Origin: Pantoea piersonii | GTDB taxonomy: Bacteria > Pseudomonadota > Gammaproteobacteria > Enterobacterales > Enterobacteriaceae | DNA: 64,000 bases | NCBI RefSeq assembly: GCF_003612015.1 | Contig: NZ_RARB01000001.1 | Location: 434,001 to 498,000, forward strand | Reading direction: 5' to 3' | Part shown: piece by piece, positions 11,110 through 32,982 of the stretch | Layout: the number at the start of each line of letters is the position of its first letter | Position numbering within the stretch: the first letter of the stretch is position 1 | Program-made: the position numbers and the translations under genes | Notes under the pieces: generated by a model | Told to the model about the DNA's origin: nothing | Databases searched by the model: none | What the model saw: only the letters and a program-made list of their open reading frames with translations

Positions 11110-11643
11110 ATGTCTGCTATCGAAGTTATTCTCGTCGATCATCTCGATCGTCCCACCGGTAAAATGGAAAAGCTGGAAGTGCATGAGAAGGGGTTACTGC
11201 ATCGCGCGGTGACGGTCTACGTATTTAATTCTTCCGGCGAGCTGCTGTTACAGCGCCGCGCCAGCGGCAAATACCACTGCGGGGGACTGTGGAGCAATAC
11301 CACCTGCGGCCACCCCTGTCCGGCGGAGCCGACCCAGCAGGCGGCGGAACGCCGTTTATTCGAAGAGATGGGGCTGGAACTGTCGCTGACCCCGGTGTTT
11401 GAGCTGAGCTACAATCTGCCGCTCAGCAACGGCCTGATCGAGCATGAGTATGGGCATGTTTACTTCGCCGTCAGCGATGACAAACCCACGCCCAATCCGC
11501 AGGAGGCGGACGACTGGTGCTATCGCTCCGTCAGTGAGATCCAGCGTGCAATGCTGGAGGAGCCGCAGCAGTTCACGCCCTGGTTTCTCTACACCTTTCC
11601 CCGTATTCCCGCCTACCTGAATGCGATGAGTATGCCAGCCTGA
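11110..11643 (+). CDS. idi: Isopentenyl-diphosphate delta-isomerase, type 1
   Basis: A 177-residue Nudix-fold enzyme that interconverts isopentenyl and dimethylallyl diphosphate in isoprenoid synthesis. Catalytic Cys66 in NTTCGHPC, the Nudix-type helix RRLFEEMG (about 81-88) and the acidic EHEYGHVY motif (111-118, the catalytic and metal-binding glutamates) are all present. Length fits E. coli Idi (182). AAGGAA lies eight bases before the ATG. It stands alone, not in a carotenoid cluster, as in E. coli. It converges on the next gene, an MFS transporter. Confidence 0.96.
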   Translation: MSAIEVILVDHLDRPTGKMEKLEVHEKGLLHRAVTVYVFNSSGELLLQRRASGKYHCGGLWSNTTCGHPCPAEPTQQAAERRLFEEMGLELSLTPVFELSYNLPLSNGLIEHEYGHVYFAVSDDKPTPNPQEADDWCYRSVSEIQRAMLEEPQQFTPWFLYTFPRIPAYLNAMSMPA

Positions 11644-11733: not shown

Positions 11734-13209
11734 TTAACGCTCAGCAAAATCCTCTGCGTCCACATCATAGCCCGACGGCTCCCAGCGTATCGCCAGCAGC
11801 GCGAGCAGACCGACCAGCGGCGCAAGGAAAATTACCCAGAAGACGCCAGTACCAAGCGCGGCGACCAGCACCGGAAACAGAAACAGCGAGAGGGTGGAGC
11901 TGCCGCGCATCAGCGTCTGATTAAAACCGACGCCGACGCCGCGCAGCGAAGTGGGATAGCTGAGCGAGGCGAAGGTCATGGTATGCGAGCCGGGGCCGAA
12001 ACCCTGGCCAAACAGGAACAGCGCCAGCATCGCAATAGCGATGCCCGCTTCCAGACCGCCTTCGGGACGACCAGTCAGCGCCAGCCCCAGCAGCGCCACA
12101 CACTGGCAGGCGTAACCCGCCACCGACATCTTCCATGCGCCAAGACGCGGCACCAGCCGCACCGCCAGCACGCCGCCGACAAAGGCGAACAGCAGATTGA
12201 GTGCCAGCGATACCAGAATGGTGGTGAGCATCGACTGGGCGAAAAAGCTGGTGATAATCACCGGCAGGCCAAACGCCACTGCGTTATAGGCGAAGGAAGA
12301 GGCGACCGAGGTCAGGGTTGCCAGCAGCGTGCGGCGCAGATAAACGCCCCGCAGCAGCGCGCCGTAGTTGCGCCAGCTGGCGCGGCGCGCAGGCTGGGTC
12401 GGCGTTGCCGCCGCATCCTCGGCCACCTGCGCATTGATGTTCCAGCCGCTGCGCAGAATCGCAGCCGCGCCTTTCAGGTCGCCCTGATTCGCCGCCCAGA
12501 CCGGCGACTCGCTCATATAGCGGCTGCGGATAGCGATAATGATCAGCGCAGGCACCGCGCCGAACCCGAGGATTAAGCGCCACAGCCAGCCGGTGTGGCT
12601 CTCCGGCAGCACCCCATAGAGCAGCAGCACCAGCAGGTAAGAGATACTGATCGCCGCATACCAGGTGGGACACCACATCGCCACGCTGGCGGCCTTATTG
12701 CCCTGGCCGCGCAGGCGGGAAAACTCGGCGAGGAACGCCATCGCCACTGGCAGATCGATACCGACGCCCAGCCCCATTACGAAGCGCGCGCCGCCCAGCA
12801 CATACTCATTGGGCGCGAAGGCGCAGGCGAGCGCCGCCACCACGAAAAAGAACATATCCGCCATAAATACGCGATAGCGGCCGATTTTATCGGTGAGATA
12901 GCCGCCGATTAACGCGCCGACAATGGCGCCAAAGGTAATGGCGGAGGCGACCATGCCGGTGCCGGTCGGCGTCAGGCTGAACTCGCGCGCTACGTCCTTA
13001 ATGCCAAACGCCAGCGCGCCGAGATCGTAAGCGTCGAGAAATACGCCGCCCAGCGCGATCGCCACCACGATGCGCGCATTATTGCGCGCGCCGTCGCCGC
13101 TGTTGATCAGGCGAGAAACGTCCGCCGCGCTGCGGATCCACTGCGTTTCACCGTCGGGCCGGTTCCCTGTTAACGCCACATGGGCGGAAGATGAAGTGAG
13201 ATCGGTCAT
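11734..13209 (-). CDS. MFS metabolite:H+ symporter
   Basis: A 491-residue major facilitator with 12 predicted membrane segments. The first helix holds GGVFLDAYDLGALAFG, typical of the sugar / aromatic-acid proton-symporter branches; the loop 2-3 signature is GGYLTDKIGRYR. The N-terminus is unusually long and polar (about 40 residues before TM1). A 26-residue Ala/Pro/Arg-rich central loop separates the two halves. Substrate cannot be told from sequence. The start at 13209 has no clear Shine-Dalgarno. An 18-bp perfect palindrome containing a met box lies 41 bases upstream, suggesting operator control of this gene. Confidence 0.8.
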   Translation of the reverse strand: MTDLTSSSAHVALTGNRPDGETQWIRSAADVSRLINSGDGARNNARIVVAIALGGVFLDAYDLGALAFGIKDVAREFSLTPTGTGMVASAITFGAIVGALIGGYLTDKIGRYRVFMADMFFFVVAALACAFAPNEYVLGGARFVMGLGVGIDLPVAMAFLAEFSRLRGQGNKAASVAMWCPTWYAAISISYLLVLLLYGVLPESHTGWLWRLILGFGAVPALIIIAIRSRYMSESPVWAANQGDLKGAAAILRSGWNINAQVAEDAAATPTQPARRASWRNYGALLRGVYLRRTLLATLTSVASSFAYNAVAFGLPVIITSFFAQSMLTTILVSLALNLLFAFVGGVLAVRLVPRLGAWKMSVAGYACQCVALLGLALTGRPEGGLEAGIAIAMLALFLFGQGFGPGSHTMTFASLSYPTSLRGVGVGFNQTLMRGSSTLSLFLFPVLVAALGTGVFWVIFLAPLVGLLALLAIRWEPSGYDVDAEDFAER

Positions 13210-13249
13210 AATGTTGTCTGTGATTATTGTGAGTGAATGGACAGCTTAC

Positions 13250-13267
13250 CGTCCAGACGTCTGGACG
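13250..13267. promoter_or_regulatory. 18-bp perfect palindrome containing a met box (AGACGTCT)
   Basis: The 18 bases are self-complementary and centred on the exact MetJ met-box consensus AGACGTCT. In the minus-strand reading, the neighbouring 8-mers TTACGTCC and GGACGGTA match the consensus at five and four of eight positions, which would make a three-box MetJ array. The central CG also fits a LacI-family operator. It lies 41 bases upstream of the MFS start and 151 bases upstream of osmF, so the MFS gene is the likelier target. No candidate regulator gene is adjacent. Confidence 0.55.
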
Positions 13268-13417
13268 TAAATTACTTTGCGTTATAACCGGACCGATAAC
13301 GATATGAAAAAGTTGAGGCGTAACCGTTCACGCTTCAGGCAATGTGTTACGCGATGCATGACGAAACGACTATTCTCTATAAGCACCTCACAAATAACCG
13401 AATTAAAGGAACACCTT

Positions 13418-14332
13418 ATGGCAAGGTCTGGTTTTCTGGCATTGACGGCAGCCGCGCTGCTGCTGGCAACAGGCGCGGCGCAGGCCGCCGACCCCGTGCG
13501 CGTGGGGTCGAAAATCGATACCGAAGGTTCGCTGCTGGGCAATGTGATTTTGCAGGTGCTGGAGAAGCACGGCGTCAAGACGGTAAACAAAATCCAGCTC
13601 GGCACCACGCAGGTGGTACGCGGCGCGATTACCGCGGGCGAACTGGATATCTATCCTGAATATACCGGCAACGGCGCCTTCTTTTTCAATGACGAAAAAG
13701 ACCCGGTCTGGAAAAACGCGCGTCAGGGCTACGAGAAGGTGAAAAAGCTCGACGCCGAAAAAAATCAGCTGGTATGGCTGACCCCTGCGCCCGCGAATAA
13801 CACCTGGACCATCGCGGTGCGCCAGGATGTCGCGCAGCAGAACAAGCTCACTTCTCTTGAGGATCTCAGCCGCTACCTGAAAAAAGGTGGCACGTTCAAA
13901 CTGGCAGCCTCGGCGGAATTTATCGAGCGCGGCGACGCCCTGCCAGCCTTTGAAAAAGCCTATGACTTTAAGCTGACGCAGAGCCAGCTGCTCTCGCTGG
14001 CGGGCGGCGATACGGCGGTAACCATCAAGGCGGCGGCGCAGCAGACCTCCGGCGTCAACGCGGCGATGGCTTACGGCACCGATGGCCCGGTCGCGGCGCT
14101 GGGCCTGCAAACCCTGAGCGATCCCAAAGGCGTACAGCCCATCTATGCGCCAACGCCGGTGATCCGCGCTGCCGTGCTGAAAGCTTATCCCGATATCGAC
14201 AGCTGGCTGAAACCGGTCTTCAGTAAGCTGGATGAGAAAACGCTGCAGCAGCTTAACGCGAAGATCGCGGTAGAGGGCCAGGACGCCAGCAGCGTGGCGA
14301 AAGCGTGGCTGCAGCAGCAGAAGCTGCTGTAA
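13418..14332 (+). CDS. osmF: Glycine betaine-type ABC transporter substrate-binding protein
   Basis: A 304-residue periplasmic binding protein, homologous to E. coli OsmF/YehZ (305). The ATG at 13418 has AAAGGA seven bases upstream and begins a signal peptide cut after AQA (about residue 23); the frame back to 13277 is not needed. The family motifs VRVGSKIDTEGSLLGNVI and IYPEYTGNG (betaine/choline OpuAC-type fold) are clear. It is first gene of osmF-yehY-yehX-yehW. In E. coli this system is sigma-S-dependent and stress-induced, with low-affinity betaine transport; that role is carried over by homology. Confidence 0.93.
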   Translation: MARSGFLALTAAALLLATGAAQAADPVRVGSKIDTEGSLLGNVILQVLEKHGVKTVNKIQLGTTQVVRGAITAGELDIYPEYTGNGAFFFNDEKDPVWKNARQGYEKVKKLDAEKNQLVWLTPAPANNTWTIAVRQDVAQQNKLTSLEDLSRYLKKGGTFKLAASAEFIERGDALPAFEKAYDFKLTQSQLLSLAGGDTAVTIKAAAQQTSGVNAAMAYGTDGPVAALGLQTLSDPKGVQPIYAPTPVIRAAVLKAYPDIDSWLKPVFSKLDEKTLQQLNAKIAVEGQDASSVAKAWLQQQKLL

Positions 14333-31962: not shown

Positions 31963-31970
31963 AGTCTACT

Positions 31971-31986
31971 CCTGTCTATACAAGTA
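31971..31986. promoter_or_regulatory. HutC-type operator next to hutH
   Basis: CTGTCTATACAAG (31972-31984) is one mismatch from the inverted repeat CTTGTCTATACAAG found 90 bases further on. It overlaps the untranslated leader just before hutH, where a repressor would block transcription. Confidence 0.6.
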
Positions 31987-32061: not shown

Positions 32062-32075
32062 CTTGTCTATACAAG
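32062..32075. promoter_or_regulatory. HutC-type operator in the hutH/hutC region
   Basis: CTTGTCTATACAAG matches the CTTGTATATACAAG-like sites known for HutC/GntR regulators. A TGTCTAT direct repeat starts eleven bases earlier (32053-32060). Confidence 0.65.
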
Positions 32076-32164
32076 TGGCAAGCTATAAGCATTTGCTATG
32101 CCAGCGCGATCACAAATTAGATCGCGCGGCGGCGGTCAGAGGGCGGGGCAGAGGCGGCTGCAGA

Positions 32165-32174
32165 TGTATATACA
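32165..32174. promoter_or_regulatory. HutC-type operator next to hutC
   Basis: TGTATATACA is a perfect palindrome 53 bases upstream of hutC and the known core of HutC boxes; it suggests autoregulation. The rest of the 264-base hutH/hutC gap shows no other clear signal. Confidence 0.55.
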
Positions 32175-32226
32175 TTTACGTGATGAGACAGTAAACTTCA
32201 GGTATTAGCGTAATAAGGAAATCAAT

Positions 32227-32982
32227 ATGGTCGAGCATTCGGCAATAGCACAGCTGGCGGCCGCGATGAGCGATGAGCCAGCCCCAATCTACCAGCGCGT
32301 GAAGCAGGCGATTATCAGCCAGATCCGCGCGGGCAGCTGGAAGGCGAACCAGCGCGTGCCGTCCGAAAGCGAACTGGTCAACGAGTTGGGCGTCAGCCGT
32401 ATGACGATTAACCGCGCGCTACGCGAGCTGACCAGCGAGGGGTTTCTGGTGCGCATGCAGGGCGTCGGCACCTTCGTCGCGGAGATGAAAGGCTACACGG
32501 CGATGCTTGAAGTGCATAATATCGCGGATGAAATCACCCAGCGCGGACACCAGCATCGCTGCCAGATCCTGGCGATCGGCCAGAATAAAGCCGATCCCGA
32601 GCAGGCGGCGGTGCTTGGTTTAAGCACCGGCCAGACCATTTTTCATTCGCTGATCGTGCATTACGAAGACGACCTGCCGGTGCAGCTGGAGGATCGCCTG
32701 GTTAACCCGCTGGTGGCACCCGATTACCTGAGCCAGGATTACCACCAGCTCACGCCCTATACCTATCTGATGCAGGTTGCGCCCCTGACGGCGGGTGAGC
32801 ATATCGTTGAAGCGGTGCTGCCCGATGCGCGCCAGCGTAAATATCTGTCGCTGGATGACCATGAGCCCTGTCTCCTGATCCGTCGCCAGACCTGGAGCGA
32901 CACCAAAATCGTGACCTACGCCCGACTGCTCTATCCCGGCTCGCGTTATAAGCTGCTTGGCCGCTTTAAGGGACACGGCTAA
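32227..32982 (+). CDS. hutC: Histidine-utilisation repressor HutC
   Basis: A 251-residue GntR-family repressor. The winged helix spans about 18-85 (VPSESELVNELGVSRMTINRAL) and the UTRA effector domain about 105-245 (GHQHRCQILAIGQN, RLVNPLVAPDYLSQDY), which binds urocanate in known HutC proteins. AAGGA precedes the ATG. Its last 17 bases overlap the convergent hutD 3' end. Boxes of its consensus lie upstream of hutH, of hutC itself and between hutF and hutI. Confidence 0.96.
   Translation: MVEHSAIAQLAAAMSDEPAPIYQRVKQAIISQIRAGSWKANQRVPSESELVNELGVSRMTINRALRELTSEGFLVRMQGVGTFVAEMKGYTAMLEVHNIADEITQRGHQHRCQILAIGQNKADPEQAAVLGLSTGQTIFHSLIVHYEDDLPVQLEDRLVNPLVAPDYLSQDYHQLTPYTYLMQVAPLTAGEHIVEAVLPDARQRKYLSLDDHEPCLLIRRQTWSDTKIVTYARLLYPGSRYKLLGRFKGHG

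Follow-up and report, generated by a model that had tools for sequence, protein, structure and literature searches.

A predicted MetJ operator before an MFS transporter gene of Pantoea piersonii and some of its relatives

Transporter gene, palindrome and met boxes

The window (the whole stretch of Pantoea piersonii DNA that was analysed, 64,000 nucleotides) holds a gene for an MFS transporter, which matches the MFS Pfam families at 111.8 bits (cut-off 22.3) and 99.9 bits (cut-off 33.4). Its neighbors are osmF, for a glycine betaine binding protein, and a gene that we take from its sequence to be of the idi type. A perfect palindrome and a series of 8-bp met boxes lie just upstream of the transporter gene (Table 1).

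Table 1. Positions of genes and promoter features around the transporter start in the window
Feature	Positions	Strand	Remarks
idi-type gene (isopentenyl-diphosphate isomerase; presumed name)	11110..11643	plus	Convergent; conserved neighbor
MFS transporter gene, 491 aa	11734..13209	minus	PF00083/PF07690; gene governed by the predicted operator
Putative -10 hexamer TAAGCT	13243..13248	minus	TATTCT/TATGCT in orthologues; placed by alignment
Weak third box GGACGGTA	13247..13254	minus	1.9 bits, under the published cut
18-bp perfect palindrome CGTCCAGACGTCTGGACG	13250..13267	.	9/9 dyad pairs in the window's subclade
Met box 2, AGACGTCT	13255..13262	minus	12.6 bits; exact consensus; centre of the palindrome
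Met box 1, TTACGTCC	13263..13270	minus	4.2 bits, over the cut; gene-distal flank
Putative -35 hexamer TTTACG	13266..13271	minus	Placed by alignment
Conserved element TTATAACnnnnnnnAATTT / TTATAACCannnnGAATTT	13269..13287	minus	Immediately upstream of the boxes; also in box-less orthologues
osmF	13418..14332	plus	Divergent; first gene of a transport run; NF049931 over cut-off

Sites were scored with the met-box matrix and thresholds of a MetJ regulon survey (Table 3 of PMC3228920), under which an operator is a run of two or more 8-bp boxes side by side, with no box under 3.145 bits and a sum of at least 12.58 bits. The initial annotation had placed the exact MetJ consensus at the centre of a perfect palindrome, as is indeed the case, and had seen partial boxes on both sides of it in the 8-bp register; of these TTACGTCC passes, whereas GGACGGTA falls short, although in many orthologues the same position is occupied by a good box (AAACGGCT, 7.6 bits). 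The matrix scoring that it had proposed as a check gives 16.8 bits on the transporter strand from the two passing boxes, over the published threshold and the top score in the window. Eight E. coli operator regions (MG1655) scored in the same way yield 15.0–31.2 bits; the window site falls within this range, low among known operators, with two boxes only over the cut. The array ends 45 bp from the transporter start codon (13207-13209, minus strand), the average gap between operator and gene being given in the survey text as about 75 bases (PMC3228920).

The genome (4.85 Mb) encodes one MetJ (PF01340, 195.9 bits), 93.3% identical to that of E. coli over 105 residues. Its own metJ locus bears a four-box array of 33.7 bits, and an 18.6-bit site accompanies its ybdL-like gene, whose product shares 81% identity with E. 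coli YbdL, a protein annotated as a methionine transaminase in MG1655.

A second passing site in the window (AGATGTAT ATACATTT, 32162-32177, 15.3 bits) sits in the leader of a gene (32227-32982) whose sequence we take to be that of a GntR-type regulator, beside a presumed histidine ammonia-lyase-type gene and among genes of histidine-utilisation type. A perfect palindrome, CTTGTCTATACAAG, is found at 32062-32075 with a near copy at 31970-31985, fitting the idea of a HutC-like operator. The site was set aside as a MetJ candidate, and is more likely an operator of the GntR-type (HutC-like) regulator.

Distribution of the boxes in the genus and beyond

Of 61 genomes of the genus searched, 46 gave close orthologues whose upstream DNA we examined; in the other 15 the close orthologue was absent or present as fragments only. 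Pantoea septica and P. latae, with transporters 97% identical to that of the window, are the nearest named relatives at the locus. Passing arrays were found for 24 of the 46 orthologues, all at the same promoter position, with two or three tandem boxes (14.4–22.7 bits). Their distance to the start, whether known or inferred, is 32–47 bp, or 38–47 bp once a pseudogene row is left aside. The remaining 22 orthologues, about 86–89% identical, have no run of two boxes. The conservation among orthologues that the initial annotation had asked after thus holds throughout the window's clade (24/24) and in none of the other genus orthologues examined (0/22). The two groups were defined by box presence; in a protein tree the 23 intact boxed genes do form one branch, with support of 98. 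Since the clade shares its history, its 24 orthologues are not 24 independent tests; its operators vary, taking 14 forms over 27 bases. The pseudogene (in G044, a 3.9-Mb genome) has in-frame stops and retains three met boxes.

More distant homologues in the genus were also scored. All four that are 66–70% identical (in G012, G013, G027 and G048) pass, with four-box arrays of 23.5–25.7 bits, and two of these genomes, G012 and G013, each hold a box-less orthologue as well as the boxed homologue. Nine homologues of about 50% identity have no boxes upstream.

Among 80 named loci from a species collection, 13 pass at the transporter promoter (11 from Pantoea/Mixta and two from Pluralibacter) and 67 have no passing array there. 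The Pluralibacter orthologue is 78% identical to the window's transporter and has the array AGACGTCT ATATGTCT (21.1 bits). None of 17 further rows, which in part repeat genomes counted before, passes, and a search of a plasmid collection with the intergenic region gave no DNA match. Because all 22 of the other genus orthologues and 67 of the 80 named relatives lack boxes, MetJ control is dispensable for the transporter's basic job.

Some records in these sets call for comment. Two loci labelled Enterobacter ludwigii (CEFQ01000010.1) and Enterobacter cancerogenus (JRUP01000002.1) encode Pantoea-type transporters, 88–89% identical, and are probably mislabelled Pantoea. LR134124.1, titled plasmid 4 of Klebsiella aerogenes, carries rpoD, dnaG and rpsU and is for that reason probably chromosomal DNA mislabelled as plasmid. 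At 16 of the 80 named loci, from Enterobacter, Superficieibacter, Ewingella and Rahnella (L113, L116-L118, L120, L121, L131, L133, L135, L141, L147, L158, L159, L161, L162 and L164), TGTGA-N6-TCAC, which we take to be a CRP-like motif, occurs near the position of the Pantoea met boxes; the global regulator in charge of the transporter may differ from genus to genus.

Mapped on a protein tree of 70 rows, made by a quick method, the box trait requires at least three changes, at least two of them forced by well-supported branches. Three separate gains, in the clade, in Pluralibacter and among the 66–70% homologues, fit best, and are preferred because neither the sequence nor the number of boxes is the same in the three operators; losses could be among the three changes.

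Could the match be a chance or neutral one of no regulatory role? The consensus octamer occurs once in the window against a chance expectation of 0.43, and at least once in 37 of 100 shuffles, so that by itself it is weak evidence, and its count was dropped as sole evidence; the window's other passing site, moreover, probably has a different meaning. Against chance stand the occurrences at one promoter position in 24/24 clade orthologues, 2/2 Pluralibacter rows and 4/4 homologues, and the backgrounds. Order-1 random sequence (2 Mb) contained eight passing sites, one of them at 17 bits or more. Of 2000 matrices scrambled without change of make-up, none passed all 24 clade rows and five passed at least 20; 22 passed both Pluralibacter rows, 10 all four homologues, and none joined the full clade with either of these sets. 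As real-DNA background, the 80 named loci (1,034,785 bases in all) gave 15 passing sites, 13 at the transporter promoter and two elsewhere, at 12.7 and 13.4 bits, both below 14.4. We regard a chance match as scarcely credible.

The initial annotation offered a LacI or TetR operator as its alternative, and a perfect dyad of 18 bp in front of a transporter gene does resemble the operator of such a repressor, sensing the transporter's substrate. A LacI or TetR site is expected to retain its dyad. Here all nine pairs are present in only five of the 24 boxed genomes, those of the window's subclade, and the other 19 keep four to seven of the nine. What the operator forms of the clade do keep is the 8-bp period, with identity at lag 8 of 0.55 as against 0.10–0.30 at lags 3–7 and 9–13; tandem 8-bp boxes are the recognised form of a MetJ operator, as stated in PMC4239095. 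The genes next to the transporter, osmF and the idi-type gene, are not LacI or TetR regulators, and the arrays of Pluralibacter and of the 66–70% homologues are quite different in sequence and yet obey the met-box rule. We therefore rejected the LacI/TetR operator, which on this evidence is very improbable. The palindrome itself is, judging from these alignments, incidental, and the tandem period is the feature kept; the lesson for method is that the 8-bp period across orthologues, not the striking palindrome, identifies the regulator.

The placing of the transporter under MetJ/SAM control by the initial annotation is thus supported at sequence level by the tandem boxes throughout the clade, the separate arrays of Pluralibacter and the homologues, the intact MetJ and the unconserved dyad. 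We predict, with considerable confidence, that the site is a MetJ operator. An unassigned transporter family, with members from Pantoea and Enterobacter to Burkholderia relatives, would then have joined the methionine regulon of one lineage.

Promoter layout and proposed repression

Comparison of orthologues by eye suggests a promoter with a -35-like TTTACG/TTTAAC and a -10-like TATTCT/TATGCT, spaced by 17–18 bp (17 in the window), and the met boxes fill the spacer between the two putative hexamers. A consensus promoter scanner run over 13150-13450 reported no promoter by its criteria. We had considered a TATAAC element as the -10, and TATA[AG]C does occur within 180 bp upstream of the transporter in 67 of the 80 named loci; it was dropped in that role for lack of a conserved -35 upstream, TTTACG/TATTCT being better by eye and the scanner backing neither. 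A CysB/Cbl-type activator was another idea for the TATAAC element, for which a literature search yielded no usable consensus. The conserved element immediately upstream of the boxes is a candidate activator site or promoter part; a pattern search of the whole genome found it at its own site and at one other with three mismatches, the reversed control also giving one.

In the mechanism that we propose, MetJ dimers charged with S-adenosylmethionine would bind side by side on the two 8-bp boxes (three in relatives), and when methionine and SAM are plentiful their presence in the promoter spacer would exclude RNA polymerase. A drop in SAM would allow the transporter to be made, and its imported cargo would relieve the shortage of methionine. 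A gene that is on when methionine or SAM is short would suit uptake better than export. Binding, repression, promoter hexamers, direction of transport and cargo are all proposed here on comparative grounds.

The boxes might instead, or in addition, serve the divergent osmF run, glycine betaine being a methyl donor; in the window the start of osmF lies just 150 bp from them, and osmF is the divergent neighbor in many relatives. The distance that is kept, however, is that from the boxes to the transporter start, varying only as given above, while the matched part of osmF begins anywhere from 209 to 405 bp from the matched transporter start in the boxed named loci. The same divergent pair is common without boxes, osmF adjoining the transporter in genomes with and without them. 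In Pluralibacter the gene beside the transporter is plsY-like and the locus yields no match to osmF; the 66–70% homologues have neighbors other than osmF. Thus osmF is probably not a target of the boxes, and a service to its run, alone or shared, seems improbable; we take the transporter as the gene governed.

Cargo and comparison with known systems

Searches of NCBIfam and PDB with the transporter returned distant relatives only. The best NCBIfam match is to the aromatic acid/H+ symporter family TIGR00895, at 100.2 bits against a curated cut-off of 418.55, so far under it that the cargo is not set by family. MetJ control would narrow the cargo to something useful under methionine shortage. 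Genes neighboring the transporter in two betaproteobacterial loci (L149 and L155) and one of Pluralibacter (L134) gave no clue to it.

A clue came from the 66–70% homologues. Behind each of the four, on the same strand, comes a gene for a dehydrogenase of the iron-containing type (PF00465), in one case (L165) after a gap of 26 bp. The four dehydrogenases match E. coli HcxA (YbdH) at 53–54% identity (tblastn, L171-L174), and the two tested (those behind L165 and L168) pass NF007880 with 503.4 and 500.5 bits over a cut-off of 429. In E. coli the hcxA-ybdL intergenic region has a 21.9-bit site, and the regulon survey describes tight repression of ybdH and mtnE by MetJ and reports that ybdH co-occurs with genes of methionine salvage (PMC3228920). 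Of 15 HcxA homologues from other genera, 10 showed a passing site within the DNA that was fetched. Another HcxA homologue (L175-L179), 68–69% identical to that of E. coli, is encoded in five genus genomes that lack the transporter-HcxA pair; no met-box site passes within the DNA fetched for these.

The initial annotation had suggested a sulphur amino acid or related substrate. The HcxA/YbdH-type neighbors of the four homologues sharpen this toward an organic acid of methionine metabolism, which they lead us to favor, though at distinctly less than even weight. The most likely such cargo would be an organic-acid relative of methionine, for example 4-methylthio-2-oxobutyrate or its hydroxy acid; a review (PMC3274233) notes that E. 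coli strains auxotrophic for methionine are able to use its hydroxy and keto analogues. Against it, most orthologues have no boxes, and a search of the window's genome at E<=1e-40 brought up no HcxA homologue, for which reason the partner argument rests on the homologues. A literature search for bacterial carriers of the methionine hydroxy analogue found none. We put forward tentatively, as possible rather than probable, that this MFS family has come under MetJ at least twice, probably three times, as a dedicated importer of 4-methylthio-2-oxobutyrate or 2-hydroxy-4-methylthiobutyrate. If so, in some genus genomes the importer would have as partner an HcxA/YbdH-type dehydrogenase acting on the hydroxy acid; its partner in the window's genome would be the met-boxed YbdL-type transaminase, making methionine from the keto acid. 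An orphan transporter would gain a cargo and HcxA a role in methionine scavenging. Repeated gain of the same control at this one promoter, together with the HcxA/YbdH pairing, makes the cargo directly testable.

Literature searches on MetJ regulons and on MetJ in Pantoea, with methylthio compounds or with MFS transporters, found no description of the gene. The term MFS does not occur in the main texts of two MetJ regulon surveys (PMC3228920, PMC4239095), whose supplements may list the gene unnamed.

The window site resembles the E. coli MetJ operators of metN, metC and hcxA(ybdH)-ybdL(mtnE) in having at least two adjacent boxes that resemble AGACGTCT near the start of a methionine-related gene, and metN in particular has the exact AGACGTCT plus weaker boxes; it differs in that the gene governed encodes an MFS transporter. 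HcxA/YbdH is represented by the dehydrogenase directly behind the 66–70% homologues, whereas none lies beside the window's transporter. The transporter aligns over nearly its whole length with TIGR00895 (PcaK/MhpT-like) and, scoring far below the cut-off, is not a member; the two may share the use of organic anions. Transport genes under MetJ are named in the survey as metNIQ, metT, mmuP, mtrACB and btuB (PMC3228920). These too are on at low SAM; they belong to other classes (ABC, NhaC-type, outer-membrane and so on), whereas the transporter of the window is of PF00083/PF07690.
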